In this document: in pieces, positions 5,601-36,939 of the stretch
Numbering within the stretch: the first letter of the stretch is position 1
Layout of the letters: every line of letters starts with the position of its first letter
Origin: Candidatus Nitronereus thalassa
Lineage (GTDB): Bacteria > Nitrospirota > Nitrospiria > Nitrospirales > UBA8639
Reading direction: 5' to 3'
NCBI RefSeq assembly: GCF_032191465.1
Contig: NZ_JAQOUE010000001.1
Coordinates: forward strand, 1,860,001 to 1,924,000
Length of the DNA: 64,000 nucleotides
Program-made: the position numbers and the translations under genes
Notes under the pieces: model-generated
What the model was told of the DNA's origin: nothing
What the model saw: the letters and a program-made list of their open reading frames with translations, nothing else
Databases searched by the model: none

Positions 5601-6073
5601 ACCGCATTGGGGAAGATGAGCTCAGGCCGTGGATCGCCTGATGCCATCCATCCATACACTCCATACCCAATCAGGCCCAACACCGCACTCGAACCAAGCA
5701 AGGCGAGGATTTTTTCGGAAAACGTATTCAGAAATGGTGTGACGAGAACACCCACCCCGATCAACAACACCAGTGCCTCCACACCACGAGAAATCGTCCA
5801 TGCCACTTGAGTCGCCCATTCAGGGTCCAAGCGGGCATCAATCCAAGATGCACCGACAAACGCAAGAAAAACGCTCCAAGTGGCAGCCACACACAAAGTG
5901 GCACTAAGAAGAGGTGCGGCTGGTTCGCGTGTAATTGTGAAATGCAGCACAGAAAACGCCACAGTAAAAAACGCGATAACAAAAATCGCCCAATCAAAAA
6001 GCATCAACCAGGTATTGGTCATGACCATTTCAGAAAGTGTAAGAGGAAGGACAAAAGCGTCTTGCGCGAACAC
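2603..6073 (-). CDS. Hybrid sensor histidine kinase (7TM-GAF-HisKA-HATPase-REC-REC-HPt)
   Basis: About seven hydrophobic helices (residues 20-260) precede a GAF domain (about 275-430) and a short coiled coil. The HisKA motif ATMSHEIRTPMNG places the phospho-acceptor His near residue 467. An HATPase domain follows (DTGVGIPP, GGTGLGLAIS). The first receiver (about 700-825) is divergent. The second (about 855-1000) is canonical, with ILLAEDN, LVLMDCQMPEMDG and SKPV. A C-terminal HPt domain has AAHTLKGSG near residue 1089. The loop before the VPIIAMTANA strand of the second receiver is about 26 residues longer than in the kinase at 30.5 kb, and the extra DNA is a heptamer repeat element. The start may be at 6028 or 6022 rather than 6073. 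It neighbours a paralogous kinase. Confidence 0.9.
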   Translation of the reverse strand: MFAQDAFVLPLTLSEMVMTNTWLMLFDWAIFVIAFFTVAFSVLHFTITREPAAPLLSATLCVAATWSVFLAFVGASWIDARLDPEWATQVAWTISRGVEALVLLIGVGVLVTPFLNTFSEKILALLGSSAVLGLIGYGVYGWMASGDPRPELIFPNAVLTRPYALIPLCGFVLGVVMWWFKSCAIKSGPFAQAFFIGMGFHLTAQGLVLGSISDLEPQVGLAYGFKVLAYFVPFCGLAWEYVAVARGFGPELEERAAIERRLNIQRGVTIALAGAPSLREAAPQMMEMVCKTLGWKFGAMWRVDEEENVLYCVEVWDGGDAALTEFSQRTRITTFALGVGLPGRVWANNQPTWVQDVVEDSNFPRSQLAHAVDLHGAFAFPFHTEGRVYGVIEFYSQSVEEPDEKLLEIMEVWGLQIGQFAQKRQAQKRVAEAARHLQLRNVELGKARDQALEAARLKSEFLATMSHEIRTPMNGVMGMNGLLLDTNLDARQRELAETVQFSGRALLTIINDILDFSKIEAGKLDIEVIDFDVRSTMNHVLDLLAEKAHEKGVELVGLVSPDIPTILKGDPGRIRQVLTNIVGNAVKFTDHGEVVIQVKGTSISEERVVVRFDVTDTGVGIPPEAHGRLFQSFTQADGSTSRKFGGTGLGLAISRQLVELMGGDIHFSSEPGVGSQFWFFLPLQMSKERSSDLRIVRESLAGLSVCCMSEHAASRQALVHYLEAWGMQVVVAESMDSALTKIRLAVVKHKPFDIVICDLHGTEIQDMDLAQQVKDACGGPSPQLVLLTAFGQRGDAHTIQEMGFAAYLTKPMHEDRLYKALCLVMGKDGADGTPGMAPHSPLITQYSVDEVERRSQMKILLAEDNLVNQKVAVLMLEKLGCSADVVDNGEQAVQALLQTSYDLVLMDCQMPEMDGFEATRQIRTKELSLVARGSSLGNQEISGASEEIRATSDERRARLHVPIIAMTANAMKGDREKCLKAGMDDFISKPVALEELSRVLQLWIPVKMTTPPEVSGVPRITASPRASRRDPVLDEMSVLDEATIGELRDLSLDDSGFLADLIHQFLERSSVLLDNIQQALSEGNFEALAGAAHTLKGSGKNIGTMRLGEACSELEKMGREAQIESIPDQLALVRQEFTEAEAALKEELVGLPSRLL
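3203..3293. repeat. Heptamer-armed inverted repeat inside a receiver-domain codon stretch
   Basis: On the plus strand three CGTCGCT words and one CGTATCT (3207-3234) lead into a core containing CACCAGATATCTCTTGG. The core is followed by the complementary words CGAGCGA, CGATCCT, CGAGCAA and CAAGCGA (3265-3292). The arms can pair, so this is a hairpin with 7-nt periodic arms. It is read in frame by the kinase on the minus strand without a stop. Its core is nearly identical to that of the copy at 6.8 kb. Confidence 0.8.
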
Positions 6074-6197: not shown

Positions 6198-9100
6198 TTA
6201 AGTCGAAGAGATGGAAATTTTAGCTAATTCGGCCTCGAGCGCAATTTTCACACGCGCATATTCTTTCGATAATTCAGAGAAAGTTCCCTCTAATTGAACC
6301 GCATCGCCTCCACGACCTTTTTCTTCCAATTCCGAGCACAGTTTTCCCAACGTCAGTGCGCCCATATTGCGGCAACTTCCTTTGAAACCATGGGCGGCCT
6401 TCATCAGCGCATCGGCATTACTCTGTTCCGCAGCTTGCTCGATGGCCGAAATATGTTCAGGGCCATCAACCAGGAACTGTTGGATGACCTCTGCGAGAAA
6501 CGTCGGATCATCACCAGACAACTCCCGTAACCCGTCAAGTGTTTCGGCATCCAGGGAAGATGAGACCGATTGGTCATCAGGTTGGACAGTCATAGTTCTG
6601 TTTTCTCCATGTTGAAGGTTGTGTTCAGCATTATCTTGGGTTGAAAGCTCTTTTGGTTTGACCCATTCCATCAGAACGGCTTCTAAGGCTTCGATTTTCA
6701 CGGGCTTTGACACAAAATCATCCATCCCGGCTTTGAGACAATTTTCTCGATCTCCTGGCATCGCATTCGCGGTCATGGCGATGATGGGGACCCGCCGCTG
6801 GTCGCTGGTTGCTCGTCTCTCGTCAGACGCACCAGATATCTCTTGGTCTCCGAGCGACGAGTCACGAGCGACGAGCAACGACTCTCGTTTTCTAATCTCC
6901 TGTGTGGCTTCGAAGCCATCCATCTCCGGCATTTGACAGTCCATGAGCACCGCATCATAGGTAATGCGGGAGACCGCTTCCACGGCTTCGCTTCCATTGG
7001 CCACCACATCAACTCGATAGCCCAATTTCTCTAACATGCGCACGGCGACCTTTTGATTCACAATATTATCATCGGCAACCAAGAGCCGGCCCTCTTGCCG
7101 TCGCTGGGCCTCACGCAGGGTATACTTCGTAATCAAATCTTTCCCCCCTCCCACCGGACCTTTTATCACCTGCTCTAAACAGTCACGGAGCTGATCGTGG
7201 TGCAGTGGCTTGGTGAGATACGCGGCAATCCCCGCCTCTTTCGCCGCTGCAGCATCTCCCCGCCTTCCCAGAGAAGTGACCAAAACGATCTTAATGTCGT
7301 TGAGCGCCGGATCGGCTTTCACTTGTCTAGCCAATTCCAACCCGCTCATTTCCGGCATTTGATAAGCCAGCACCAACAGATCACAGGGCTGCCCTTGAGC
7401 CTTCGCGTCTCTCAAAAATGTCAGCGCCTCGAACCCAGATTCGGCGCTGAGGCAGGTCATCCCCCAGGCCTGCGCGTAATGATGCATGAGGAGCCGATTG
7501 GTATCGTTATCATCCACCACGCACACCCGCCGCCCTTTGAGGCTTGTGCTCATCGTGATCTTGTTATTTTTCTGGTTGACTTGCTTTTCAAGTTGAATGG
7601 TAAACCAAAACCGACTGCCATGGCCGGGGGTGCTCTCCACGCCAATCTGACCATGCATGAGTTCGGTTAATTGCTTGCAAATCGCCAAGCCCAGCCCGGT
7701 GCCACCAAACTTTCGAGTGGTTGAGCTATCCGCTTGGGTAAACGGTTGAAAAAGGCGTTGCTGCGCTTCAGCGGTCAATCCAATCCCCGTATCCATCACC
7801 TCGATTCGAATCGTCACCATTTCCGGAGTTTCGTTTTCAGGAACGACTTGGATGACGATTTCTCCCTGTTCCGTGAATTTGATGGCATTGCCCACGAGGT
7901 TCAGCAAAATTTGCCGAACTCGTCCTGGATCGCCACGAACCGCCGTCGGCACTGAGGCATATACCAACCCCACCAACTCCAACCCTTTCTCCTGGGCCTT
8001 GGCCCCTACAAGGTCGAGCACATCTTCAATGGCAATCCGCAAATCAAAATCGAGCGTTTCAATGTCCAGTTTGCCAGACTCTATCTTGGAAAAATCAAGA
8101 ACATCATTGATGATACTCAACAAGGCATCCGCCGAATGCTGGACGGTCTCGGCACATTCCCGCTGATCCTTGGTCAAATTGCTTTCCAATAACATGCCCG
8201 TCATGCCTAACACGCCATTCATGGGCGTCCGAATTTCATGGCTGACCATCGCCAAAAATGCCGATTTCAGGCGGACGGCCTCAAAAGCCTGATCACGGGC
8301 TTCCACCAAATGGGCTTCAAACTGTTTTCGTTCCGTGATGTCACGGACAATCCCAGCGAACACTCGTCGTGAATCCATGTGTACGACGCTAAGGGAAAGA
8401 TCCAACGGGAAGACAGACCCATCCTTCCGCCGGCCCTCAACTTCTCTTCCTTTTCCAATAATTTTCCCTTCCCCTGCTTCTTCATAACGTGTCCAATATC
8501 CATCATGCTCTTCATGATGGGGTGATGGCATCAGCATAGACACATTGTGACCCAAGACCTCATTTGGTTCATATCCAAATATATCCTGCGCCGCTTTGTT
8601 AAAGGATTCGATAGCACCGGCTTCGTCAATGGTAATGATCCCATCCCCTGCCGTATCCACAATGCCCTGTGTTAAGCTCATGGCATCGAGTAATTCAGCT
8701 TCCACTTTCTTTCGTTGGGTGACGTCTCGAAAGGTCACGACCGCGCCCACCATTTCTCCGAGAGAATTTCGTTGAGGAGTGCTGGCATATTCCACAGGGA
8801 AACTGGTCCCATTTTTTCGCCACAATACCTCATCGTCCACATAATGAACCGAGCCTTCATTGAAGGCCGCATACATCGGGCAGTCTTCACGAGGATATGG
8901 GGTGCCATCCGCATGAGTATGGTGCACCGTGGCATGCATAGGCATACCAATGAGTTCATCGGGATCATAGCCCAACATCCGCGCAGCAGCGGGATTGACA
9001 AATGTGGTCACTCCATTCAGATCAAGGCCATAAATCCCTTCAGCCGCAGAATCGAGAATGATGGCATTTCGTGCCCACAGCTCTTTGTTTTCTTCTAGAA

Positions 9101-10955
9101 TATGCCCTAATTGTGTGGCATTGGTTTGAGCCACCTCCAAGGCCTCTATCGTGGCCTTTTTCGACCTTTCGAGACGGCGAACCATGATCAACAACGTTCC
9201 AAACAGGGGGAGAATCATGGCGACGCCGGCCAGACCTAACTTCATCTCGATCTCTTGAATCGCTGCGAGAATACTCGCTTTATCTCGGCGAATGAGCACC
9301 CCCCAATGAAACCCCGGCACCTCTGGAATGGCTCGCACTTTCGCATACCCCGTCAACACAGGAGTGTTTCGACGGGTATGGAACTCTTCCACAAACCCCG
9401 CCCGATTGGAAGTCACGGCCCAAGCAGAAGGCACAAATTTATCGCGTAAATTGACTATCCCTTCCTGAGATAACACATTTTCCAAGAGCACCATGCCCGT
9501 CTGGCTCAAAAGCTGCCATTCCAGTTGGGAAGAAGTGTTTCTGCGGTCAAACATCGAGTCAGCCGCAATACGAAAAATGTGGCGCATATGATCGATATTA
9601 ATATAGGCAACCACGATTCCGATAACATTTCCCCCTGGATCCATCACAGCATTGACCAACGTCAGGACCAACGAATTGCCGAGCCAGGGATTGGGTTGAA
9701 CATCTTGCAGGTCCAAGTTCGGATGGACCTCTCCCAAGTACCATGCGAGATCCTCACCGAGATTCTGTCCCACCATCTGAGGAAGATTGGACGCGACCAC
9801 CTCACCATCAGGATTGATAAAACTCAATCCAGAAAACGATGGAGAGGAGTTGGCCACACGAGAGAGGTAGTCACCGATTACTGTAGGATCACGCTGTTGC
9901 AAAAAGGGGGATTTGGCAATGAAGTGCATATCCCCTCGGCGTTCCAACAAATTTTGGTGCAATTGGTCTGCGATGCTTTCCGACATCATGGCCAATCGCT
10001 CTCCTTCCCTGGCGACTAAAAACGCATGCACCTGGAACGTGGTGCCGGCACCAACCCCCACCACCACCAGCACCATGGCCACAATCACCATCGGCAGCCA
10101 GTTGGTCAGGGGCTGTTTGTCCGAATATCTTGGTGGCTGGGAAATACTCTCATTTGATGCGAAGGACCTCGATGCATCACCTCGTTGTGAAAGGCTCATC
10201 ACGCATTGAAGACCAGTTCCATAGGCCGCCAACCTCAGAACATGCCACCACCACCATCCCGCATCCCACAATGTGGAGAGTTCGAACAAGATCCCAGCGG
10301 CGCCGAATAACAGACAATGAATGGAAAACAACCATTCGTCGATGTGACCGGACTCACGAAACTCCCGAATAAATCCTATGGCAGCCAAAAGAAATCCAAG
10401 CCCGCCAATGATATTGAGTCCTCTGGCCAGGGGGGTGAATTCTCTTCCTTCCACCATGATGGGAAGAAAGTCGGCCATGGCCAATGAGGCAAGGCTGAAG
10501 ACGATCACACCACATCCAATACCGACGGGGAAGGCGAAGCGGTAGCAGGGTGAAACGCTTTTCCGAAGGTACGATCCCAACATAAACAATGTACCCCCGA
10601 AAAACACGGCCGTACTGTGGAACCAGACGAAGGTATTCCCAGGATTCATGAATGCATGAATGGCATCCAACACGCCCATACCAACCATTCCACAAGCCAC
10701 CCAAAGATACAGACTCTTGGTCTTCGTCTGTTCATGACCCAACAAAATAATAGCCAGACACAAGGCCAAGAGCGCACCGATGCATTCAATAAATGTATGA
10801 AATGCATGATCCTTCCATCTCCAGTCCGGATACATCACGTCCGAAACCAGGCTTCCCATAATGGGCAAGCCCAATCCCAACAGCACAAGGAGTGCCAGCC
10901 CTGTGGAGAAGGGAAGGAACCTCATGTCACCGGAAACTGTCGATTGGTTAGTCAT
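6198..10955 (-). CDS. Hybrid sensor histidine kinase (MASE-like 7TM, dCache-like, PAS-PAS-HisKA-HATPase-REC-REC-HPt)
   Basis: A 1585-residue membrane kinase. Residues 1-270 form about seven helices of a MASE-like sensor (HAFHTFIECIGALLAL, DAIHAFMNPGNTF). After another helix comes a periplasmic Cache-type region (about 320-590), then two PAS domains (about 635 and 765 onward). HisKA has AMVSHEIRTPMNG near residue 905 and the HATPase has MDTGIGL. Two receivers follow (CVVDDNDTNR; LLVADDNIVNQKVAV with MDCQMPEMDG), then an HPt with AAHGFKGSC near 1520. The second receiver has the same enlarged loop (about 33 residues before VPIIAMTANA) as the downstream paralogue, again made of heptamer repeat DNA. 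I chose the ATG three codons after an in-frame TTG. The 240 bp upstream hold no gene. Confidence 0.9.
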   Translation of the reverse strand: MTNQSTVSGDMRFLPFSTGLALLVLLGLGLPIMGSLVSDVMYPDWRWKDHAFHTFIECIGALLALCLAIILLGHEQTKTKSLYLWVACGMVGMGVLDAIHAFMNPGNTFVWFHSTAVFFGGTLFMLGSYLRKSVSPCYRFAFPVGIGCGVIVFSLASLAMADFLPIMVEGREFTPLARGLNIIGGLGFLLAAIGFIREFRESGHIDEWLFSIHCLLFGAAGILFELSTLWDAGWWWWHVLRLAAYGTGLQCVMSLSQRGDASRSFASNESISQPPRYSDKQPLTNWLPMVIVAMVLVVVGVGAGTTFQVHAFLVAREGERLAMMSESIADQLHQNLLERRGDMHFIAKSPFLQQRDPTVIGDYLSRVANSSPSFSGLSFINPDGEVVASNLPQMVGQNLGEDLAWYLGEVHPNLDLQDVQPNPWLGNSLVLTLVNAVMDPGGNVIGIVVAYINIDHMRHIFRIAADSMFDRRNTSSQLEWQLLSQTGMVLLENVLSQEGIVNLRDKFVPSAWAVTSNRAGFVEEFHTRRNTPVLTGYAKVRAIPEVPGFHWGVLIRRDKASILAAIQEIEMKLGLAGVAMILPLFGTLLIMVRRLERSKKATIEALEVAQTNATQLGHILEENKELWARNAIILDSAAEGIYGLDLNGVTTFVNPAAARMLGYDPDELIGMPMHATVHHTHADGTPYPREDCPMYAAFNEGSVHYVDDEVLWRKNGTSFPVEYASTPQRNSLGEMVGAVVTFRDVTQRKKVEAELLDAMSLTQGIVDTAGDGIITIDEAGAIESFNKAAQDIFGYEPNEVLGHNVSMLMPSPHHEEHDGYWTRYEEAGEGKIIGKGREVEGRRKDGSVFPLDLSLSVVHMDSRRVFAGIVRDITERKQFEAHLVEARDQAFEAVRLKSAFLAMVSHEIRTPMNGVLGMTGMLLESNLTKDQRECAETVQHSADALLSIINDVLDFSKIESGKLDIETLDFDLRIAIEDVLDLVGAKAQEKGLELVGLVYASVPTAVRGDPGRVRQILLNLVGNAIKFTEQGEIVIQVVPENETPEMVTIRIEVMDTGIGLTAEAQQRLFQPFTQADSSTTRKFGGTGLGLAICKQLTELMHGQIGVESTPGHGSRFWFTIQLEKQVNQKNNKITMSTSLKGRRVCVVDDNDTNRLLMHHYAQAWGMTCLSAESGFEALTFLRDAKAQGQPCDLLVLAYQMPEMSGLELARQVKADPALNDIKIVLVTSLGRRGDAAAAKEAGIAAYLTKPLHHDQLRDCLEQVIKGPVGGGKDLITKYTLREAQRRQEGRLLVADDNIVNQKVAVRMLEKLGYRVDVVANGSEAVEAVSRITYDAVLMDCQMPEMDGFEATQEIRKRESLLVARDSSLGDQEISGASDERRATSDQRRVPIIAMTANAMPGDRENCLKAGMDDFVSKPVKIEALEAVLMEWVKPKELSTQDNAEHNLQHGENRTMTVQPDDQSVSSSLDAETLDGLRELSGDDPTFLAEVIQQFLVDGPEHISAIEQAAEQSNADALMKAAHGFKGSCRNMGALTLGKLCSELEEKGRGGDAVQLEGTFSELSKEYARVKIALEAELAKISISST
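6794..6888. repeat. Second heptamer-armed inverted repeat, in the paralogous receiver loop
   Basis: Left arm GCTGGTC, GCTGGTT, GCTCGTC, TCTCGTC (6796-6823); core with GACGCACCAGATATCTCTTGG; right arm with CGAGCGACGAG and CGAGCGACGAGCAACGA (6851-6882). The core differs from the 3.2-kb copy at very few positions, and both sit at the same place in the receiver domain. The whole stretch is stop-free in the kinase frame. Confidence 0.8.
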
Positions 10956-11198
10956 AATCAATAGATACGTGAGGACGAATGGTTTGGTGCCATCGTCTGC
11001 GTAACATTTTTATTCCTTTTGATTAAAAGAAATAGGGTCGTCTATCACTTACAGAGCTATGAAGAATATCTTCGGTTCTCAAGCAACATAAATTAATAAA
11101 TATTGACCAGATTTTGGGATTCACACATGGAGCGGTGGTTCTGCCGTGACATTTGACAGGGAGAAGGTGACAGTAAAAGCGGAGGCGGGGTTTTTTGT

Positions 11199-12387: not shown

Positions 12388-12490
12388 TGTATTTCGTCGT
12401 TCGTATCTCGTCTTGCGTGAAGCAATTCACGTCGTGCGCATTCCGATTTATATGTTTTTACGAGATACGTTTCACGAAATACGAGATACG
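12388..12490. repeat. Heptamer inverted repeat between the ExeA-like and TPR genes
   Basis: In 7-nt register on the plus strand: TGTATTT, CGTCGTT, CGTATCT, CGTCTTG, CGTGAAG, CAATTCA, CGTCGTG (12388-12436). The opposite arm reads ACGAGAT, ACGTTTC, ACGAAAT, ACGAGAT (12460-12487). It contains the CGTGAAG punctuation word seen in the larger arrays. It fills almost the whole gap between the upstream stop and the downstream start, so it occupies the ribosome-binding region of the TPR gene. Confidence 0.75.
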
Positions 12491-12498
12491 TTTTTTTC

Positions 12499-13326
12499 TT
12501 AATTCATTCCGGCAATTTCCCGTTTCGCCCGCCAGAGCATGAACGCATTCACGTCAAACCGATGATTGGCATAGGCCGCTAGTAGGGCGCGGTCACAGAG
12601 TTGGTTGATGCGGCGAGGCACGCCGCCGGTGATGTAATGCGCAAGCATCATGGCCCGATGCGGAAATTGAAACCGCGCATGTTTGCCGGCCCTATTGAGC
12701 CGATGCTGGATATACTGCATGGTGTCATGCCATTCAAAGGGCATCAGTCGAAACCGGACACTGATGCGCTGAGACAGGGGACGCAATACCCGATTCGCCA
12801 ATGTGCGTTCCAATTCAGGCTGCCCCACAAACAACAAACACATCAGTTTTTCTTTTTCCGTATCCAAGTTTGACAACAACCGGAGTCCTTCCAAAACTTT
12901 GGGGCTTAATCGGTGCGCCTCATCTACCAAGACGGCCACCCGCTCTCCACTTTCGGCGAGCTTGAGCAACACTTCCGGCAACACTCGCTGCAACCCCCCA
13001 ATGCTGCGATCTTCCGGCACCAGGCCGGTGAGGTCTTGGTAGATGGAGGTTAACAAATCCGCATAGGATTGGTCGGGATTCAACAGATAGGCAAACCGCA
13101 CGCCTTCCGGCGGATGACGCAACAGGTACCGACAGAGCAAGGTTTTGCCAACACCGACTTCCCCCGTCAGCATGGTCAGCCCCCCACTGGCGACACCATA
13201 TCGAAGGTGATCGAGGGCTTCTTTATGATGCTGACTCGGAAAGAAGTAATCGGTATCCGGCGTGATGCGAAACGGCGATTCTTCAAACCCTAATTGTTCG
13301 TAGCATAGTTGAAGGTCAGAAGTCAT
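12499..13326 (-). CDS. ExeA/MshM-like AAA+ ATPase of the pilus locus
   Basis: A 275-residue cytoplasmic ATPase. It opens with the family motif LGFEESPFRITPDTDYFF, then Walker A GEVGVGKT (about residue 55), Walker B VAVLVDEAH, and a C-terminal region with GGVPRRINQLCDRALLAAY. ExeA, GspA and MshM proteins of this type help install the secretin or pilus machine through the peptidoglycan, although this copy has no periplasmic peptidoglycan-binding domain. It starts 2 bp after the secretin stop, so the two are co-transcribed and probably coupled. Confidence 0.85.
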   Translation of the reverse strand: MTSDLQLCYEQLGFEESPFRITPDTDYFFPSQHHKEALDHLRYGVASGGLTMLTGEVGVGKTLLCRYLLRHPPEGVRFAYLLNPDQSYADLLTSIYQDLTGLVPEDRSIGGLQRVLPEVLLKLAESGERVAVLVDEAHRLSPKVLEGLRLLSNLDTEKEKLMCLLFVGQPELERTLANRVLRPLSQRISVRFRLMPFEWHDTMQYIQHRLNRAGKHARFQFPHRAMMLAHYITGGVPRRINQLCDRALLAAYANHRFDVNAFMLWRAKREIAGMN

Positions 13327-14928: not shown

Positions 14929-15489
14929 CTAAGAAGCTTCCGGTGTCTCTTTCTGGACACCACCAAACTCCAGCCATCGGGGTTCATTCTTACCCAAGAG
15001 TCGAACTCCATCCCGTTGGATTCGATCAACAACATAACCGTGAATCTGTTCACCCTCTCTCACCAATTCCCGATTGATCATGGCGAGGCGGGTTGACCCA
15101 TCGACGAACACCGCATGCAGATTGATGGCCGATGGAGTCACCGATCGAACCGTTCCACCTTCCTGATTCCCCACTTCCTGAAAAAATTCGCCTTGAAGGA
15201 GTGAATCCGTGGCAGCAGGCTGAAAGGGATCACCGCTAATTTCCTTGGGCCAGCCCACCGTAATGGGCTGAGACGGGACAGTATCCAAGGAGGCAACCTG
15301 GTTGACCGGTGACGCGGCCACCGGAGTCGGAGGAACAGGTGCGGGGGTCGGAGCAGGTGCAGGAACCTGCGCCACTTCCACCGCCAAAGGGGAGGGCGAC
15401 TTCGAATCAAACACCCGGACGTAAACGGTAATGAGTGCCAACACACAAAGCGCGCCGACGACCCACGGATTGTTCAGAAGGTTTCTCAT
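14929..15489 (-). CDS. PilP/MshK/GspC-like inner-membrane protein
   Basis: 186 residues: an N-terminal transmembrane helix (VVGALCVLALITVYV), a Pro/Ala-rich linker, and a small periplasmic domain near residues 115-175 (AINLHAVFVDGSTRLAMI, REGEQIHGYVVDRIQRDGVRL). That domain resembles the HR/PilP fold that contacts the secretin N-domain. Its position between PilO-like and secretin genes matches mshJ-mshK-mshL order. Its ATG overlaps the PilO-like stop as ATGA, indicating translational coupling. The family is poorly conserved, so the exact name is uncertain. Confidence 0.7.
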   Translation of the reverse strand: MRNLLNNPWVVGALCVLALITVYVRVFDSKSPSPLAVEVAQVPAPAPTPAPVPPTPVAASPVNQVASLDTVPSQPITVGWPKEISGDPFQPAATDSLLQGEFFQEVGNQEGGTVRSVTPSAINLHAVFVDGSTRLAMINRELVREGEQIHGYVVDRIQRDGVRLLGKNEPRWLEFGGVQKETPEAS

Positions 15490-16082
15490 ACCGGTTGCTG
15501 TAAAAACGTATGGAGTCGAAGTTCCATTTTCAGGGCACCTTGCCCCAACCCCAGGAGTTCGATGGATTCAAAGTTCATCTTCAAGGTCTCTTCGCTCAAG
15601 GTTCTGACAAATTGCATGAACTGGTGATAACCCTGCGCAGGACTTTTGGCTTGCAGCGTCATCTCCATAGCCACGCGTTGGACATCTGGCACACCCTGAA
15701 CCGGACTTGAGGCTTCATCGATTCGGTAAGTGAGTTCCAGCCCCAGAGACTGGGCCTGGACATTCATCTGGGCCACCCAGTGGACCAATTCCGGGTAATG
15801 CTCAAAACTCCCTTTTTTCGCCGCCGCCCATTCATTCCTTACCGCCTCTGCCTCATCTTCCGACCATAATTCTTCCAATGAGGCCACCTGCCGACCCAGA
15901 CTAAACGAGGTGTACATGTGAGATTGCGCCTCCGTCACCAAGGACAATCGAAAGGTGATAGACCAGAGGACAAGGAGGAGACAGCCAAAGATCAGGCTCC
16001 CGGCGCTCACACGTTTCACCAGTTCAGGCGACAACGATCCCTTTTTAAGAAAACTATTGAATGGTTGAACCATGTTCATCAT
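15486..16082 (-). CDS. PilO/MshJ-like inner-membrane protein
   Basis: 198 residues from the ATG of MMNMVQPF: a short cytoplasmic segment, one transmembrane helix (LIFGCLLLVLWSITFRLSL), a helical stretch, and a periplasmic ferredoxin-like domain (about 95-195) typical of PilO/MshJ. It should pair with the PilN part of the upstream protein. The open frame continues about 50 codons further upstream, but those codons come from a heptamer repeat (RATSDERR-like peptides) and overlap the previous stop, so I leave them out. The ribosome-binding site is weak. Confidence 0.7.
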   Translation of the reverse strand: MMNMVQPFNSFLKKGSLSPELVKRVSAGSLIFGCLLLVLWSITFRLSLVTEAQSHMYTSFSLGRQVASLEELWSEDEAEAVRNEWAAAKKGSFEHYPELVHWVAQMNVQAQSLGLELTYRIDEASSPVQGVPDVQRVAMEMTLQAKSPAQGYHQFMQFVRTLSEETLKMNFESIELLGLGQGALKMELRLHTFLQQPV

Positions 16083-16111
16083 CTCGTTCACCGTTGACGT
16101 GGCTCGAACTC

Positions 16112-16212
16112 GTTCGCTCGTCGCTGGTTGCTGGTCGCTCGGACAAGAAAAGGAAGTACGACAATTTTTTTCTCGAGTAGCGAGCAACGAGACCCGAGCG
16201 ACGAGCGACATT
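16112..16212. repeat. Heptamer inverted repeat between the PilMN-like and PilO-like genes
   Basis: Left arm GTTCGCT, CGTCGCT, GGTTGCT, GGTCGCT (16112-16139). Right arm TAGCGAG, CAACGAG, ACCCGAG, CGACGAG (16178-16205). The 38-bp loop is unrelated to the loops of the kinase copies, so the arms are conserved while the cores differ. It separates two genes that are normally adjacent or overlapping in MSHA operons. Confidence 0.78.
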
Positions 16213-16233
16213 GGTTGTTTGCGAGCGACTCCT

Positions 16234-17649
16234 TCATCCAATCACTCCCTTGATCGCGAAACTTCTCGTTTCCTGCTTATCCCCAAATCTCACTCCCCGG
16301 CGCAGGGCATCAACCCAATGCTCTCTCCAGCCCTTGGTCATCACCATATGAAAAGGACCGTCCGTGAATTCTTGTTCCAGGCGGGTCAGTTGTTCCGCAT
16401 TTCGGGTAAAGTCTTCACTCCCTTTTCCTGTCATTTCCACCACCCAACGACCTTCGGTACGTCGAAGAGCCACTTTGGTGAGAATCAAATCTTTGGGAAC
16501 AACCTGGCCCAGATAGGCCATAAACCATGCCGGAATAGGCGGCTCGTATTGGTCCTGCAAGACCTGAGTCTTTGTTCGGATGTCCGCCAATTCGGCGTAT
16601 CGGGCTTGCCAGGCATCTCGCTCCTGGGCCAACTCCAGGGTTTTAGGTTCCACGGAAGCGGTTAATTTTTGCCCTTGCTCAATGAGCCCCTCGATGACGC
16701 CCGTCGTACTGATCGACAAACAGGCCAACCCGACCATGACCGCCGCACTCACCTTGCGCATGGCCCTTCGTTGAGGAGCTTTGCGCACTTCTGCGGGAAT
16801 AAAATTACAAGGATGGTTTGCCGCCAACGTAAGACTCACCCAAATCCAGTAAGCCGGATCCGGCACAATCGGGCTGGGCATTACGGGAACTGTGACATGA
16901 GATTGAAGAGATTCCGCCGTCAGCCATTCATCTTCACCCATGAGCCATACTTGGCTGACTCGTTGCCCCAGTTGCTGTGTGGCAAAGAGCAAGGAGCGCG
17001 TGATTTCTCGGCCGATTCGTTCGGGTTGAATTCGACTGTGCTCGTTGGACATGAGGAAGCGATCAAACAACGGTTTGCCATCCCCAGTCGCCACCACGAA
17101 CACCACCCTATCCCAGGCTTTGGTGATGAGAAGCACGACTTCCTCGGGCTCGGCACCTACCGTCAAAATTTGATCCATAAACGCGGCGGACAAGGGAAAC
17201 ATTTGTATAGGCTGTAACTGTTGTTCTTCGCAGGCCCGTATGAGTTGTTCCACATGATCTTTGGGCCAGACATCAAGTAAAAATCCCACACGACCGCGAC
17301 CGGCTAAGGCTTTGCGATACCGCCAGACCGCCGGGCCCTCACAGGCCTTTTCCTGGTCGGACATCCGTTTGAGATACGTGTCCATGTCGGCGGGTTTCAT
17401 GGGCGGCACCAAATGGTATTGATGCACACAGGCCAGATCTTCGACGAGAAAGCCGACTCGCTTCCCTTTGAAATTCGTCGCCTGCACTGCCTCGGCTAAG
17501 ACTTCTCCTAAATGATCAAACGAATCCAGGGGACGTGGACATACCCAACTTCCGACAGTCTTGCCTTTCACCACAGCGAGGGCACGAAATTGTCCGTGGA
17601 TCAAACTGACCCCTAACATGGTTTTTTTAAATGGTTTTCCACTGGCCAT
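16234..17649 (-). CDS. PilM-PilN fusion-type protein (MshI-like)
   Basis: 471 residues. The first 280 or so resemble the actin-like PilM fold (LGVSLIHGQFRALAVVKG, VVLLITKAWDRVVFVVATGDG). A transmembrane helix at about 300-320 (VSAAVMVGLACLSISTTGVI) leads into a coiled coil and a PilN-like periplasmic domain (LGQVVPKDLILTKVALRRTEGRWVVEMTG, in parts). MshI proteins combine both parts and anchor the pilus platform. It is probably the first gene of the lower part of the operon, since 250 bp separate it from the diverging PilZ gene. I see no strong promoter there. Confidence 0.75.
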   Translation of the reverse strand: MASGKPFKKTMLGVSLIHGQFRALAVVKGKTVGSWVCPRPLDSFDHLGEVLAEAVQATNFKGKRVGFLVEDLACVHQYHLVPPMKPADMDTYLKRMSDQEKACEGPAVWRYRKALAGRGRVGFLLDVWPKDHVEQLIRACEEQQLQPIQMFPLSAAFMDQILTVGAEPEEVVLLITKAWDRVVFVVATGDGKPLFDRFLMSNEHSRIQPERIGREITRSLLFATQQLGQRVSQVWLMGEDEWLTAESLQSHVTVPVMPSPIVPDPAYWIWVSLTLAANHPCNFIPAEVRKAPQRRAMRKVSAAVMVGLACLSISTTGVIEGLIEQGQKLTASVEPKTLELAQERDAWQARYAELADIRTKTQVLQDQYEPPIPAWFMAYLGQVVPKDLILTKVALRRTEGRWVVEMTGKGSEDFTRNAEQLTRLEQEFTDGPFHMVMTKGWREHWVDALRRGVRFGDKQETRSFAIKGVIG

Positions 17650-20331: not shown

Positions 20332-22251
20332 TCATTCCGCCAAGGTGACAGCAGCAATATTTTCCTGGGTGGTGTTTAAGCCAACATCATTACCCTCCAA
20401 GACGATAGAGGCTAAGGCCGTGGTGTTGCCCGTTATCCCCATGGTGGTGGTCACGGCATTCAAGGCAAAAATATCATGGTATTGCACAGAAATAGGAACC
20501 GTCCCGACTGTCGCATCATGCCAATCCAATGTAGCGAGGATCGTGCCCGGCAACAACACCCGTCCTCCCATTGTCGTGGTATCCTCTACCAGGTAAACAC
20601 CGTAGACATATCGATTATTGTCAATATTAATATCCGACCCTTCTAGTAAAATAGCTGTGGTTCCCGAAGTGCTTCCAGCACCCACACTGGTCGGGACATA
20701 ATGGTGAATATCATTCCTTCCGGTTTTGGAAGAAGCGTAAAGAAAAGTCCCGGCAGGCAATATTACATCTCCTACAAGCGTGTTTTTTTCCACGACGGAA
20801 ATACCCGAAATTATCCCGTTAATGGGATTTTCCAATAACATATAAAAGGTACCTGAAGAATAGTCACCCGGTGTCGCTGGCCGGAAGACAAACACATCCT
20901 TCCACGTCACGCTCAAGGTATTGAGACTGGTCAAGGTGGCATTAAACTCTGTAGAGAGGAGAAGGTCTCCCGGTAATAAATCAAATGTGGTGGTGGTCCC
21001 TACAGTCACCCCAGTTTTTACATAATCAACGGCATCGATTTGTAGGCCCCCACTGGAAAATGTTCTAAAATTTTGCAATGAAGAAAACGTACCATTGGTA
21101 GTCCCTGGCTCCAATGCTAAATTCGGGTCGGAAAAACGAAGAACATCAGCATTCGTCCAAGAATCTAGCCCCGGAGCGCCGCTTGGGGAACCCACATCTC
21201 CGAAGGTCGCGAGCAGAATGCCGCCAAGACCGCTTCCGCATCCGCTGACTCCACCCGAACAGGCTTGAACTAAGATGGGGCCGCTTCGCCATTGCACTCC
21301 CGCCGGGCGGCAAGGGTTAAAATGATGAGTGGTATCTTCATTCGCAATGAATTGAATTTCCGGCACCGCATAAGGTATAGCTTCATCCACTCCAACTCGT
21401 GTGCCAATAAGATGATACCGGAGGTGACTGAGGGTAATGCCACAGCCGGAATTGGTGACGGTCCCGTCAATACTGTAACTCCCCCCTGTGGTATCGGCCA
21501 GCAAATTGACGAGCCGGAACAAATGGCCCACGCTGCCGCGTTCGATGAATAGATCCGGGGTCGAAGTTTCATTGGTATTCCACCATGCATCAAACTCCGT
21601 GGCGTTGGTAATGGTCGGGGCTGCATCCGCATTCAAATTTGAGATGAGGAGATATCGCGTATCCGGAATTTCGTTTTCCGCAATCCCTGCGGCATTGCTG
21701 AACGCCGCCATGGTGGGATGCAAGACGTAATACCGAGGAAAGCCTCGATCGTTTTGCAACAATCGCGTGTCCCCCATTTGCAGATATTTCGGACTCAATG
21801 CAGACAGATCTGCCGGCCAGGCATGGGTCTCCTGCAAAGACAATTCAATGGCTTGTGCAATAGCCTGAAGGTTGCTCTTCTCCGCAGTCCTTGTGGCGTC
21901 ATCGAGTCGGTTGATGAAATTGGGAAGGATGATTGCAGCAAGAATGCCAACGACGGCTAATACGCCGACAACTTCGAGGAGGGAGAAACCGTGGGATGAT
22001 CGTAGCTCGTATTTCGTATCTCGTATCTCGTGAAGAAACAGACGTCGCTCGTCGCTCGTCGCTGGTCGCTCGGGAGACGTATCTCGTATTTCGTCGCTCG
22101 TATTTCGTGAACATAAAGATATCGATGGTCCTCCGGAAAGAGTATTTCGTATCTCGTATTTCGTATTTCGTGAAGAAACAGACGTCGCTTGTCGCTCGTG
22201 AAGAGTATCTCGTATTTCGTATCTCGTATTTCGTGTCTTGGTGAGTCTCAT
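20332..22251 (-). CDS. Large prepilin-like protein 1 with repeat-encoded leader
   Basis: The class III prepilin signature HG|FSLLEVVGVLAVVGILAAII follows an 88-residue leader counted from the first ATG. Leaders are normally 6-25 residues. The whole leader is read from heptamer repeats (RNTKYEI- and TSDERR-type peptides), and no ATG, GTG or TTG lies between the array and the cleavage site. The globular part has a domain shared with the next two prepilins (WWNTNETSTPDL...) and a C-terminal half with recurring 'GSD/GND' strands (GTTAILLEGSDINI, ASIVLEGNDVGL). Probably a minor pilin or tip adhesin of the MSHA-like pilus. The true start is unknown and the gene may be disrupted. Confidence 0.7.
   Translation of the reverse strand: MRLTKTRNTRYEIRDTLHERQATSVSSRNTKYEIRNTLSGGPSISLCSRNTSDEIRDTSPERPATSDERRLFLHEIRDTKYELRSSHGFSLLEVVGVLAVVGILAAIILPNFINRLDDATRTAEKSNLQAIAQAIELSLQETHAWPADLSALSPKYLQMGDTRLLQNDRGFPRYYVLHPTMAAFSNAAGIAENEIPDTRYLLISNLNADAAPTITNATEFDAWWNTNETSTPDLFIERGSVGHLFRLVNLLADTTGGSYSIDGTVTNSGCGITLSHLRYHLIGTRVGVDEAIPYAVPEIQFIANEDTTHHFNPCRPAGVQWRSGPILVQACSGGVSGCGSGLGGILLATFGDVGSPSGAPGLDSWTNADVLRFSDPNLALEPGTTNGTFSSLQNFRTFSSGGLQIDAVDYVKTGVTVGTTTTFDLLPGDLLLSTEFNATLTSLNTLSVTWKDVFVFRPATPGDYSSGTFYMLLENPINGIISGISVVEKNTLVGDVILPAGTFLYASSKTGRNDIHHYVPTSVGAGSTSGTTAILLEGSDINIDNNRYVYGVYLVEDTTTMGGRVLLPGTILATLDWHDATVGTVPISVQYHDIFALNAVTTTMGITGNTTALASIVLEGNDVGLNTTQENIAAVTLAE
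22001..22238. repeat. Heptamer array of 34 consecutive units
   Basis: 238 bp divide exactly into 34 seven-base units without a slip. Most begin with CGT (CGTATTT, CGTATCT, CGTCGCT). Even the unlike units (CGGGAGA, ATAAAGA, TATCGAT, GGTCCTC, CGGAAAG) hold the register. CGTGAAG followed by AAACAGA occurs twice (22029 and 22169), each time leading into CGTCGCT words. One base out of register, further CGTTGCT, AGTCGCT and GGTTATC units continue to about 22274. All clear words point the same way. The array covers the 5' part of the first large prepilin gene. Confidence 0.9.
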
Positions 22252-22354
22252 TTCGTTGCTAGTCGCTGGTTATCGGTTGATGGGAATGCGTAAGGCGTAC
22301 CCCCGCATAGCCACCTTCGTATTTCGTACCTTGCTGGTATGATGGCGACGTGTC

Positions 22355-24271
22355 CTATTCACTTAAATACATGCCAATGCCGTTTAGGTCGATCCCATCC
22401 AAACTCACATCCGACCCATCAAAGAACAAATAAGCGTTCGCTTCGGACTGAAAGCTCAGCAGGCCAAGTTCGGTCTTTGTCACATCCAAAATGAAAATAT
22501 CTTCCCTCTCTGTTGCGATTGAATTATCACCAACCGACGAGTCATCAGCGTCTAAAGTGACGAGAATTTGTCCAGCCAAGAGAGTGGTGCCTCCAATGGT
22601 CCTCTCTGATTCAATGAGTTCGATGCCGGTAATGTCCTGACTCAAATTAAAATCACTGCCATCGAGGAGAAGTTGCGTCGTCCCGACCGTCAAGGTGCCC
22701 ATCCTTAACGGGGTAAAGAGATAAAGATCCTCACTTGTTTCACTCAACAGCAATGTGCCGGCCTGCAGCGTGGTATCACCCACGAATGTATCCTGTTCGA
22801 CCAGAGAAACTCCCTGAGTCGAACCAAACCCAACATCGCTCGCATCAAAAAACATGATAAACGTTCCCGACGAATAATCTCCCGGTTGATCCGGACGGAA
22901 AATAAATACATCGTTATCATCGACCGAGAGGCTATTCGTGCTGTTCAACGTTTCATCCCCTTGGGTAGAAAGCAGCAAATCCCCTCTATAGAGATCGAGT
23001 GTGATGAGGGAACCCACAGTCAGATTTCTTGACACATAATGAATTGCATCGATATCGGCCTGGCCCGTAAAATTTTCGAGTTTAAAGATGGCACCATATT
23101 GACCTGCCGTGGTGCCACCCGGCGGCGAGGTCTCAAAACTCAGATTCGGATTGTCAAAGGAAACAATTTCGTCCTCACCCCAGCTCCCGATTTCCGGTAT
23201 CCCGCTCGTATCACTCGCAGTGGTCAGCCACAACACTTCACATGGCGCTGCTGGAAGCGGTGCAACAACCCATCGATCACCGATGGACCGGCACGGATCA
23301 AATTGATAGGACACATTGGTGGTGAGGGCGAACTCAATTTCCGGAGTGCCATAGGGAGTGTCTTCATCCAACGACACCACCGTTCCGGCCACATGGTACT
23401 GATTGTAATCCGTCAGCGTGCCTCCGCTTGAATCGGTCGTGGTTCCATCAATTTGGTAACTCGCGCCGGGACCAAGAAACGTCAAGTTCACCTGGTGAAA
23501 GAGGCTGGCCAGATTGCCGCGATAAATTTTAAGATCGGGCGTGGCGGTTTCATCAGTGGCCCACCAGGTTTCAAACTCGGTGGCGTTCGTGATGGTCGGC
23601 GCGGCATCTTGGCTTAAGTTTGAAACAAGCAAAAAGCGAAGCGCGATCAGATCACTTGCCGCGAGTCCCGCTCCGTTGTTAAAGGTGGCCGTGGTCGGAT
23701 GAGCCGCATAATACCGGGGGAACCCGCGAGGATTCTGCAACAACTGGGCACTATCCAATGGCACATACTCCGGACTGTGCGCGGCCAGGGTTGGTGCCCA
23801 TGCGCGATTGCGGCGTAAGTAAAGTTCGGTGCCCTCCGCGATGCCACTTAGACTCTGTAATTCCTGATCCGTGCTGAGGCGATCGTTGAGCGACACCAAA
23901 TTCGGCGCAAACACCGCCGCCAAAATCGTCATCACCGCAAGAATACCGACCATCGCGAGGAGGGTGAAACCGGGGGAAGATCGTATCTCGTATTTCGTAT
24001 CTCGTATTTCGTTATTTGGGAAGAAAGGACAACATTCGTGTTTCGTATTTCGTATTTCGTATTTCTTTAAAGGATAAAGATGAGGGACAAAAGACGAAAG
24101 AAGTATCTTCTTTGCGAGATACGAAATACGAGATACGAGATACGTCAGTTTCTTCACGAAATACGAGATACGAGATACGAACGACGTTCTTTTTATCGCG
24201 AGATACGAGCGACGAGCGACGAGCGACGTTTGTTCTCCCATCACGAACATTGCTGTCCTTGAACCAGCCAT
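22355..24271 (-). CDS. Large prepilin-like protein 2, leader repeat-encoded, lacks Glu5
   Basis: The prepilin N-helix SPG|FTLLAMVGILAVMTILAAVF is preceded by about 101 residues translated from heptamer arrays in both orientations (SRISYFV-type and KYEIRNT-type peptides). No usual start codon lies between the array and the cleavage site. Position +5 after the cleavage is Ala instead of the Glu that nearly all pilins need for subunit docking; such a change is seen in GspK-like tip subunits. The globular part is paralogous to its neighbours (ATDETATPDLKIYRGNLA). A C-terminal half has repeated FDGSDV strands (MFFDASDVGF, LLLDGSDFNL, LFFDGSDVSL). It overlaps the 3' end of prepilin 3 as drawn; the real start is unknown. 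Confidence 0.65.
   Translation of the reverse strand: MAGSRTAMFVMGEQTSLVARRSYLAIKRTSFVSRISYFVKKLTYLVSRISYLAKKILLSSFVPHLYPLKKYEIRNTKHECCPFFPNNEIRDTKYEIRSSPGFTLLAMVGILAVMTILAAVFAPNLVSLNDRLSTDQELQSLSGIAEGTELYLRRNRAWAPTLAAHSPEYVPLDSAQLLQNPRGFPRYYAAHPTTATFNNGAGLAASDLIALRFLLVSNLSQDAAPTITNATEFETWWATDETATPDLKIYRGNLASLFHQVNLTFLGPGASYQIDGTTTDSSGGTLTDYNQYHVAGTVVSLDEDTPYGTPEIEFALTTNVSYQFDPCRSIGDRWVVAPLPAAPCEVLWLTTASDTSGIPEIGSWGEDEIVSFDNPNLSFETSPPGGTTAGQYGAIFKLENFTGQADIDAIHYVSRNLTVGSLITLDLYRGDLLLSTQGDETLNSTNSLSVDDNDVFIFRPDQPGDYSSGTFIMFFDASDVGFGSTQGVSLVEQDTFVGDTTLQAGTLLLSETSEDLYLFTPLRMGTLTVGTTQLLLDGSDFNLSQDITGIELIESERTIGGTTLLAGQILVTLDADDSSVGDNSIATEREDIFILDVTKTELGLLSFQSEANAYLFFDGSDVSLDGIDLNGIGMYLSE
23982..24232. 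repeat. Large heptamer inverted repeat at a prepilin gene junction
   Basis: The left arm (23982-24064) has CGTATCT/CGTATTT words with one register slip. The right arm (24114-24232) is 17 units in perfect register in the opposite orientation (GCGAGAT, ACGAAAT, ACGAGAT, ACGTCAG, TTTCTTC ... ACGAGCG, ACGTTTG). The 49-bp centre holds ordinary sequence. The reverse complement of the right arm contains CGTGAAG-AAACTGA, the same punctuation as other arrays. It covers the leader region of prepilin 2 up to the stop of prepilin 3. Confidence 0.88.
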
Positions 24272-25161
24272 TTCGGGGTTCCCTGACAGTTAGGGTCAAA
24301 CTGATACCCGGCGTCCATCGTCAAGTTCAACTCGACTTCCGGAGTGGAGTAGGAATCACTCGTATCCAGCTTTACCGGAGTGCCCACTACATGGTAGCGG
24401 TTGTGAAGCGCCAGGGTTTGATTGCCGGGAGTACCGGTCGAGGTTCCGTCGATCTGGTAACTTCCACCCGGGCCAACTGGGCTCAGGCTCACCAAATGAA
24501 ACATATTGCCTAAATGCCCGCGATAAATTTTCAGATTCGGCGTGGAGGTTTCATCCGTATTCCACCAGGCATTAAATTGTGTGGCATTGGCAATCGTAGG
24601 ACTGGCATTCGCACTGATATCTGAAATCAGCAAAAACCGCATATCCGGCAACGCACTTTCAGCGAGACCGGTGGCATTGGAAAAACCTGCGGTGGTGGGA
24701 TGGGCAAAATAGTACCGGGAATACCCTCGGCTATTTTGAAGTAGCTGGGCCGAGCCAAAAGACACATATTTAGGACTGAGGGCCGCAAGGTTGGGAGGCC
24801 AGGTTCGGTTTTCCCGAAAATACACCTTCACCCCTTCGGCTATGGCCTGGAGGTTTTTGGTTTCCTCGGTTTGTTCGGCACGGTCAAAGACATCTATGAC
24901 ATTGGGAATCGCAATCGCCGCCAGCGTCGCCATAATCGCCAACACCCCGATGACTTCGATGAGGGTGAAACCGGCGGCGTTAAGCGCCGCGCATCTCGTA
25001 TTGCGTATTTCGTATTTCGTATTTCGTGAAGAGAAAAACGTCTCTCGTATCTGGGGAGAAGTATCTTGTATCTTGTATCTCGTATCTCGTGAAGAAAAGA
25101 ACGTATCTTGTATCTCGTATTTCGTATCTCGTTTTTTCAGAAAAGATGCTTGAAAAGTCAT
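24241..25161 (-). CDS. Large prepilin-like protein 3 (short form), repeat-encoded leader
   Basis: 306 residues. The signature NAAG|FTLIEVIGVLAIMATLAAI has the normal Glu5. The leader from the first ATG is 64 residues, of which about 45 come from the 20-unit heptamer array. The ATG itself lies outside the array. The globular domain is paralogous to prepilins 1 and 2 (NTDETSTPNLKIYRGHLG, HNRYHVVGTPVKLD) but ends at the Cys-containing tail without the extra C-terminal half. The three genes probably arose by tandem duplication. No Shine-Dalgarno precedes the ATG, so an alternative start or a disrupted gene remains possible. Confidence 0.7.
   Translation of the reverse strand: MTFQASFLKKRDTKYEIQDTFFSSRDTRYKIQDTSPQIRETFFSSRNTKYEIRNTRCAALNAAGFTLIEVIGVLAIMATLAAIAIPNVIDVFDRAEQTEETKNLQAIAEGVKVYFRENRTWPPNLAALSPKYVSFGSAQLLQNSRGYSRYYFAHPTTAGFSNATGLAESALPDMRFLLISDISANASPTIANATQFNAWWNTDETSTPNLKIYRGHLGNMFHLVSLSPVGPGGSYQIDGTSTGTPGNQTLALHNRYHVVGTPVKLDTSDSYSTPEVELNLTMDAGYQFDPNCQGTPKWLVQGQQCS
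24997..25136. repeat. Heptamer array of 20 units, left flank of the four-helix gene
   Basis: 140 bp in perfect 7-nt register, plus orientation: CGTATTG, CGTATTT x3, CGTGAAG, AGAAAAA, CGTCTCT, CGTATCT, GGGGAGA, AGTATCT, TGTATCT x2, CGTATCT, CGTGAAG, AAAAGAA, CGTATCT, TGTATCT, CGTATTT, CGTATCT, CGTTTTT. The CGTGAAG plus A-rich punctuation occurs twice. It lies downstream of the four-helix-bundle gene and inside the leader region of prepilin 3. Confidence 0.9.
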
Positions 25162-25184
25162 GGGTCACGTTAAAATCTATTTGA

Positions 25185-25556
25185 TTAGGTAGATACGTTT
25201 ATCTTCTTTATAAGGCTTTTGAGCATTCGGGATTCATGGTCCAATTTTTCCAAAAGGTTTCCTTTGCCCCTACTTGGTAAAAATCCTAAATCACAACTCA
25301 ATTCCACTTGGGTTTCTAACTCGGCACAAGACCCAAGTGCCATGTACAAAAATTGCCGATATTCCTTGTTGTGAATTCGGATAAATCCTTCGGCGATATT
25401 CGACGGGATTGAAACCGCAGCGCGTCGCATTTGAGACACTAATCCATACATTTCTTCTTTGGGAAAACTCTTACTCGACTGATACACCTCCAAAGCAATT
25501 TCTTTTCCTAGTCTCCATACCTCAAGATCCCTAAAACTTTTTATCTTTGTTGCCAT
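25185..25556 (-). CDS. Four-helix-bundle protein (23S rRNA intervening-sequence protein / bAvd-like family)
   Basis: 123 residues, the usual length of the family (PF05635/TIGR02436). Motifs: IKSFRDLEVWRLGKEIALEVY, MRRAAVSIPSNIAEGF and LGSCAELETQVELS. Relatives are encoded in intervening sequences of some 23S rRNA genes and as stand-alone genes. The same fold serves as the Avd accessory protein of diversity-generating retroelements, where it forms basic pentamers that bind nucleic acid. No reverse transcriptase, variable repeat or rRNA is nearby. The gene interrupts a pilus operon between GspF-like and prepilin genes, has no Shine-Dalgarno, and is bracketed by heptamer arrays pointing in opposite directions. 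I infer that it belongs to the repeat element rather than to the pilus. Its role is unknown. Confidence 0.85.
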   Translation of the reverse strand: MATKIKSFRDLEVWRLGKEIALEVYQSSKSFPKEEMYGLVSQMRRAAVSIPSNIAEGFIRIHNKEYRQFLYMALGSCAELETQVELSCDLGFLPSRGKGNLLEKLDHESRMLKSLIKKINVST

Positions 25557-25570
25557 CAATCGTTTTTTTT

Positions 25571-25605
25571 ACGAAATACTAAATACGAGATACGAAATAC
25601 GTTCT
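25571..25605. repeat. Heptamer array of 5 units, right flank of the four-helix gene (inverted)
   Basis: ACGAAAT, ACTAAAT, ACGAGAT, ACGAAAT, ACGTTCT followed by a T-run. The words are the reverse complement of those on the left flank. ACGTTCTTTT mirrors the AAAAGAACGT junction in the left array. The array lies just upstream of the four-helix ATG and 12 bp past the GspF-like stop. Confidence 0.82.
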
Positions 25606-36766: not shown

Positions 36767-36772
36767 AAAAAT

Positions 36773-36929
36773 TGTCGCTCGTTGCTGGTCGCTGGCAAAA
36801 AAGACGTGTCTCTAGGCTTGCGTCTGTTTCTCTCAGGAATATTTCTGGATTGTGGTTTGCGTAAACGGGAGAAGGAAAGACGGGTGAGATTGTCTGGTTA
36901 CCAGCAACGAGCGACTAGCAACCAGCAAC
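36773..36929. repeat. Heptamer-armed inverted repeat filling a convergent gene gap
   Basis: Left arm TGTCGCT, CGTTGCT, GGTCGCT (36773-36793); right arm CAGCAAC, GAGCGAC, TAGCAAC, CAGCAAC (36902-36929). The core is about 108 bp, longer than in other copies, and shows no gene. It occupies the space between the EAL-protein stop and the stop of the facing prepilin gene, where it could also act as a bidirectional transcription barrier. Confidence 0.78.
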
Positions 36930-36939
36930 TGAATTTTTA

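Follow-up and report, generated by a model that had tools for sequence, protein, structure and literature searches.

The window analyzed here, a 64,000-nucleotide stretch of the genome of Candidatus Nitronereus thalassa (contig NZ_JAQOUE010000001.1, positions 1,860,001 to 1,924,000), contains an array of seven-base units at 22001-22238. We consider it probable that this array is part of a family of hairpin insertions, in which two arms of tandem heptamers converge and the loop of the gene-bearing form holds a gene of the S23/IVP family (PF05635, "23S rRNA-intervening sequence protein"; TIGR02436, "four helix bundle protein"). Gene-less hairpins of this type are scattered in the genome, between and even inside genes, and at sites on cyanobacterial plasmids the arms and an S23/IVP gene entered as one insert. 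A reading made from the letters of the window (the sequence-only reading) described the array by itself; the array does not stand alone, however, but belongs to a family of hairpins and has an S23/IVP gene at a distance of 3 kb. Among the papers listed in our searches of the openly licensed literature, none linked S23/IVP genes outside rRNA with heptamer arrays.

Convergent arms and the S23/IVP gene of the window

A typical element consists of an arm of 2-7 CGTNNYT heptamers, often followed by CGTGAAG or CGTAAA, and a second arm of the same kind in reverse, with 4-122 bp of loop between the two. The window holds 30 islands of at least two core-like units, 20 of which have at least three; ten shuffled windows gave 0-5 islands of at least two units and none of at least three. 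Where neighboring islands lay on opposite strands within 150 bp of each other, they were always convergent, both in stretches of the C. N. thalassa genome (22 of 22) and in stretches of G001, a genome of the same genus (17 of 17), for a total of 39 of 39. The stretches from both genomes were picked around array matches, and two-unit islands with a mismatch in both units were left out of the neighbor, hairpin, and arm-comparison counts. Arms also resemble their partners: the fraction with a word class common to both arms was 0.77, as against 0.56 (inner) and 0.54 (outer) for shuffled partners, and none of 2,000 shuffles reached 0.77.

These two results bear on the simplest alternative, namely that the array is an ordinary heptanucleotide simple-sequence repeat, made by polymerase slippage and with no link to a mobile element. 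A heptamer excess is known in bacteria and has been ascribed to the polymerase footprint (PMC4692102). Slippage alone accounts poorly for island pairs that are convergent only and for arms that match in word class, and, together with the S23/IVP and plasmid evidence below, this leads us to regard it as quite unlikely as a full explanation.

The array and the elements nearest to it are as follows.

22001-22238, + strand: the reported array, a left-type (CGTNNYT) arm cluster with spacers, upstream of the - strand prepilin-like gene
22254-22331, + strand: two more islands, starting at 22254 and 22318, each shifted by one base relative to the phase of its neighbor
20332-22251, - strand: prepilin-like open reading frame (ORF) with an N_methyl match; its sole listed start lies beyond the array, and GFSLLE reads from 21990 (residue 88)
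23982-24064, + strand: left arms of a sister hairpin located upstream of the prepilin-like gene that comes next; the two islands differ in phase by 6
24117-24228, - strand: right arms of that hairpin, comprising three islands arranged in blocks of 42 bp
24990-25136, + strand: left arm cluster of the gene-bearing element
25185-25559, - strand: S23/IVP gene (PF05635, TIGR02436), in the loop of the gene-bearing element
25574-25601, - strand: right arm of the gene-bearing element

The S23/IVP gene is the only PF05635 match in the genome, and it lies between convergent heptamer arrays. The gene-bearing element (24990-25601) has a T2SSF gene on one side and a prepilin-like gene on the other, and is ~3 kb from the reported array. 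The locus is outside the 23S rRNA gene, and the window has no Rfam match at the gathering score.

By sequence, the one solved relative found was 2GSC of Xanthomonas, described in PMC4990558 as a homopentamer of four-helix bundles. Alignments suggest homology between this family and Avd (2GSC and 4DWL, respectively), according to PMC10053308. This homology lends some weight to a second alternative, in which a reverse transcriptase copies an RNA hairpin while S23/IVP acts like the Avd of diversity-generating retroelements. Unlike genomes with such retroelements, however, this one has no RVT_1 (PF00078) match at E <= 0.001; it could have lost the enzyme, or another polymerase could serve. Overall, we find reverse-transcriptase copying very unlikely, and its narrower form, copying by an RVT_1 enzyme of the same genome, is rejected or at least weakened by the missing PF00078 match.

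S23/IVP loci in other genomes and filled plasmid sites

The S23/IVP family occurs in 181 of the 295 Nitrospirota genomes searched. At 40 Nitrospirota loci, each with up to 20 kb of sequence, 13 segments with a seven-base lag (10 of the 40 loci) lay within 250 bp of S23/IVP, a total of 20 kb, whereas the 587 kb at 2-10 kb held 12. Lags 4-6 and 8-14 combined gave four segments within 250 bp of the genes, and lag 8 gave none. Under a looser filter, a set of 31 loci showed lag 7 at 9, lag 14 at 8, and lag 8 at 6. Around 30 close Nitrospirota loci there were nine lag-7 segments within 150 bp (seven loci), compared with three at 500-1500 bp. The 31-locus, 40-locus, and 30-locus sets overlap partly (G015, G053, G082, G249, and others), and their counts are not additive.

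The same period recurs outside Nitrospirota. From 39 plasmid records with an S23/IVP gene, 16 were fetched, all of them cyanobacterial; 12 of these 16 loci had lag-7 segments within 150 bp of the gene (18 segments), and the other lags from 5 to 12 combined had one. For other phyla, the set comprised 30 loci in 15 of the 40 genomes searched (by record titles Planctomycetota, Omnitrophota, Riflebacteria, deltaproteobacteria, and others), with 20 lag-7 segments in the 8.9 kb within 150 bp of the genes (13 of 30 loci) versus 15 at 500-1500 bp, where 54.6 kb were covered. Of the neighboring lags, 6, 9, and 11 had 3, 2, and 1 segments close to the genes. The words beside S23/IVP vary, including GGGAGTA, GGGAACA, AGTGGCG, GTGAAAG, CGTGAAR, and others, and the period is nearly always 7. 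At one locus (L158, 7930-7959 and 8827-8860), octamer arrays (GTTCAAGN) lie 1-2 kb from an S23/IVP gene.

Inverted flanks show a similar focus. At a score of at least 14 they were found at 10 of 16 plasmid S23/IVP loci versus 0 of 96 control ORFs, and at 17 of 40 Nitrospirota loci versus 12 of 518 control ORFs. The close Nitrospirota set gave 8 of 30 versus 0 of 31 controls, and the other phyla, where the score covers 29 of the 30 loci, gave 12 of 29. Arrays made of the words of C. N. thalassa were present in 12 of 58 relatives, 10 of which have an S23/IVP gene (kinship ignored); this search used those words alone, and absences in it say little about other words. A focus of arrays on one gene family is a further point against slippage by itself.

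The plasmids also provide matched filled and empty sites. At five filled sites the neighboring genes were separated by 428-505 bp; in the relatives without the insert, the distance was -1 to 52 bp (filled/empty pairs L255/L323, L249/L326, L254/L329, L251/L331, and L262/L333). The arms fall within the extra segment, by alignment in L255/L323 and L249/L326 and by direct reading of the flanks in L251/L331 and L262/L333, the alignment having put the downstream flanks of L331 and L333 in the wrong place; L254/L329 aligned poorly, and the L254 case rests on annotation. At the first site, where L323 and L255 are 98.5% identical across 75% of the query, the heptamer hairpin of Brasilonema L325 lacks the gene, and Nostoc C052 L324 shows one arm together with a truncated gene. 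The second site (L249/L326) is occupied by a hairpin without a gene in L327 and by a different insert in L328. Relatives with clean empty sites, the mark of a DNA transposon or a miniature inverted-repeat transposable element (MITE), were thus found for the plasmid elements only. They speak for arms and gene inserting as one piece, contrary to slippage without a mobile element.

Whole-unit length change, on the other hand, does favor the slippage alternative. In two pairs of related filled sites, ~1.7 kb each, the sole indels are 14 bp and 7 bp and lie in heptamer arms, alongside 29 and 137 substitutions, respectively. The alignment used a high gap-opening cost, and the net length differences are also 14 and 7. 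A third filled pair, 71% identical and too diverged to judge, has one 4-bp indel outside the arms. The tandem seven-base units, with length change by whole units in two of two close plasmid pairs, are features shared with heptamer simple-sequence repeats.

Several plasmid inserts lie between functionally related genes: cas6/cas4 (L248, L256), cas10/cmr3 (L254), and ribonucleotide reductase genes (L247). The cas10/cmr3 site is empty in Picosynechococcus PCC 7002. In L248, L254, and L256, the S23/IVP genes, flanked by heptamers or related sequence, are found inside CRISPR-cas operons of cyanobacterial plasmids.

For the window locus, the empty counterparts are in distant relatives only, the Nitrospirales metagenome-assembled genomes (MAGs) L028 and L029. 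There, the homologous T2SSF-like gene ends 54-55 bp from where the prepilin-like gene starts, with no array and no S23/IVP match in the gap. At the same gene boundary, L027 has a decayed S23/IVP copy between heptamer islands (12929-13167; tblastn E 2e-6, the match being interrupted by gaps and a stop). From the bare gap in L028 and L029 and the islands around the decayed copy in L027, arms and gene seem to have arrived together at the window locus too, an order of events that we infer.

Several observations weigh against the hairpin-insertion reading. Beside the reported array itself, the island map of the window has no opposite arm. No movement was observed, and the empty plasmid sites could in principle be precise losses; one plasmid site suggests a target-site duplication (GTAATTAA), with none clear at the other sites. 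Inverted flanks also occurred at 3 of 25 control ORFs of the other phyla. A strict array test was failed by 30 of 40 Nitrospirota and 17 of 30 other-phyla S23/IVP loci; two of the 12 array-bearing relatives have no PF05635 match (G013, with a relic on a contig, and G032), and 16 of the 46 relatives without arrays of the C. N. thalassa words have an S23/IVP gene. A flank word is scattered in G249 (seven places, the gene's own included) and not in G082. The search of the genome for transposases covered the Y1_Tnp family and gave no match.

Phase and block structure of the array

The sequence-only reading had described 34 consecutive heptamers in strict register, with several units far from the core words. 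For 22001-22238 this description is confirmed: the 238 bp divide into 34 heptamers with zero slips, although the stretch had been delimited within the in-phase part of the array. Twenty-three units are within one mismatch of CGTATTT, CGTATCT, CGTCGCT, or CGTTGCT, and the remaining 11 are spacers, such as CGTGAAG, AAACAGA, CGGGAGA, and TATCGAT. The autocorrelation check that the same reading proposed came out in its favor, as self-identity was 0.537 at lag 7 compared with 0.172 at lag 6 and 0.113 at lag 8, and 2,000 shuffles of the array gave a lag-7 mean of 0.258 and a maximum of 0.359.

Beyond these limits, register is not strict. The two islands adjoining on the right are each one base out, the sister-array islands at 23982 and 24037 are out of phase by 6, and two further places in the genome are out by 3 and 2. 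Across 200 kb of the genome, 12 of 17 same-strand neighboring islands were in phase and 5 were out, and 10 of the 12 belong to the prepilin cluster of the window. Steps of 7 bases between core-like units numbered 338 versus 38 after shuffling (350 kb, two genomes), while 6-base steps (10 versus 9) and 8-base steps (22 versus 17) showed no clear excess, and a plain decaying repeat is rejected or weakened on this basis. Adjacent units in the same 350 kb differed at 0.26 of positions, and most of this difference comes from the alternation of a few standard words.

Block duplication accounts for part of the phase. A spacer module, CGTGAAGAAACAGA, lies within a 22-bp piece with an exact second copy at a lag of 140 bp, and Tandem Repeats Finder (TRF) reported a 63-bp period on 22059-22235 (78% matches, 6% indels) and a 42-bp period on the sister array at 24114-24234. 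The exact recurrence and the two longer periods indicate that spacers are copied as parts of larger blocks and so stay in phase.

The sequence-only reading had also proposed that register is maintained by the process that makes or keeps the array. The whole-unit indels in the plasmid arms agree with this proposal, as does the difference of one heptamer between Coxiella strains described below; the strictness that it assumed does not stand, given the slips next door. We propose that arms lengthen and shorten by whole-unit slippage or recombination, in which case register would be kept because change by whole units suffices, and that block duplication would carry spacers along in phase. The 34-unit run may have arisen from arms copied with the tandem duplication of the prepilin-like genes beside the gene-bearing copy, and would later have been enlarged.

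Hairpins between and inside genes, related systems, and a proposed mechanism

Further hairpins in the window lie at or within other genes.

3200-3294: in-frame hairpin in the receiver domain of a hybrid kinase gene, with a weak right island (both its two units mismatched)
6793-6880: in-frame hairpin at the same place in the next hybrid kinase gene
12388-12490: heptamer hairpin at a gene boundary
16119-16210: heptamer hairpin at the 5' end of ORF 15486-16241
36767-36939: heptamer hairpin (36773-36930, without the outer runs) that fills the gap of two convergent genes, with an A-run on the left and a T-run on the right

Elsewhere in the genome, a second dense hairpin cluster (L189, 4513-9652) holds six convergent pairs in ~5.2 kb; it has more CGTCGCT words and no PF05635 match.

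Small hairpins scattered between genes, and sometimes in frame inside genes, are also typical of repetitive extragenic palindromic (REP) sequences, their paired form REPIN, and RPE-like palindromes. Spread of such palindromes by a Y1 (RAYT) transposase would explain many copies of short intergenic hairpins. The arms described here, however, are tandem heptamers of variable number, and the C. N. thalassa genome (98.7% complete) has no Y1_Tnp (PF01797) match at E <= 0.001, while 38 of the 57 genomes searched have one. This alternative was already weak, and we judge it highly improbable.

Hairpin inserts have been taken into proteins in two settings, receiver-domain loops and prepilin leaders. 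The neighboring hybrid kinases (2603-6073 and 6198-10961) each have their in-frame hairpin just before the "PIIAMTANA" of the last receiver domain, at a place in the fold that we take to be a loop. Many kinase homologs in relatives are split at this site, with matches that stop near query residue 170 and restart near 200. Ten loops were caught by a motif; the shortest has 7 residues (L222), those of the window kinases have 34 and 38, and others have different inserts.

The three consecutive prepilin-like ORFs (20332-25161) have arrays upstream of each, in the place of the short leaders in L028 and L029 (MIYSQR and MICSQK). The motifs GFSLLE, GFTLLA, and GFTLIE start at residues 88, 101, and 64, respectively. 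Two of the three ORFs match Pfam N_methyl, and in the middle one GFTLLA was identified by eye only. In L027, an arm supplies the leader MNDERRARNC before GFTLIEM.

Such cases raise the alternative that the arrays and their spacing are kept by selection at the individual sites, for an RNA function (terminators, processing hairpins) or a protein function (prepilin leaders). In favor of it, there are no stops in three frames on the prepilin strand, and the short leader of L027 is arm-derived. The outer base bias of the hairpins, though modest (A 34% in the left 12 bases, T 40% in the right 12), also fits, as does the hairpin at 36767-36939, which fills its intergenic gap and could be a terminator in both directions. 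But the other strand has 2, 0, and 4 stops, L028 and L029 have short leaders without any array, and the same words recur inside kinases and at many unrelated places. We hold selection at each site to be an unlikely account of the arrays and their spacing; a selected role may be later use rather than origin. Frame selection as the origin is rejected or weakened by the stops on one strand. By inspection, moreover, one frame through the GGGAGTA words of L247, a Nostoc locus, contains TAG.

Among known repeats, the short tandemly repeated repetitive (STRR) sequences of heterocystous cyanobacteria are heptanucleotide repeats as well; they are not known to be linked to a gene. Tandem heptamers with the words GGGAATC in Xanthomonas and GGGGA(C/T)T in Nostoc, mostly intergenic, were described by Rehm et al. 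(PMC4692102), where heptanucleotides of Calothrix are also mentioned and convergent heptamer pairs number 70 and 75 in two Xanthomonas genomes. These resemble our elements in their tandem heptamers and convergent pairs and differ in their words; according to that paper they are not generally associated with mobile elements, and it uses neither the term S23 nor the term four helix. The TAACTGA repeats of Beggiatoaceae, Cyanobacteria, and Bacteroidetes, patchy over phyla, share the seven-base unit (MacGregor, PMC4679880). They differ in being mostly short direct sets before start codons, with one inverted repeat reported, and a translational role was proposed for them.

The intervening sequence (IVS) of 23S rRNA with an S23p/IVP ORF resembles the gene-bearing element: both are small inserts whose ends are inverted and whose loop encodes a protein of this family. 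The Coxiella IVS has 2-3 heptameric repeats directly before the S23p ORF, 2 versus 3 between strains (PMC4990558). Unlike the IVS, the elements described here lie between or inside protein genes, have long heptamer arms on both sides, and include many gene-less copies. Heptamer repeats, convergent pairs (in Xanthomonas), and heptamers before S23p (in Coxiella) are thus already in print.

For the hairpin insertions themselves, we propose that S23/IVP, the one linked gene, may through its product, an Avd-related pentameric four-helix protein, assist in copying or inserting a single-stranded hairpin. A broader idea, which we put forward tentatively as possible but short of probable, is that many heptamer repeats across bacterial phyla derive from a single class of transposable hairpins, as arms, as remnants, or as descendants without the gene. 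These hairpins would move with the aid of S23/IVP and need no linked transposase or reverse transcriptase, and their machinery would set the seven-base step. If true, words would drift freely while the period stays.

These results would join two bacterial puzzles that have until now been treated apart, heptamer repeats and a small gene known from rRNA insertions. To our knowledge, the heptamer excess in bacteria is unexplained, and S23/IVP is a widespread family with no known function, known mainly from rRNA insertions. Gene and repeats that enter as one piece give S23/IVP a testable role and the repeats a possible origin, and the plasmids with matched filled and empty sites are where movement would be measurable.
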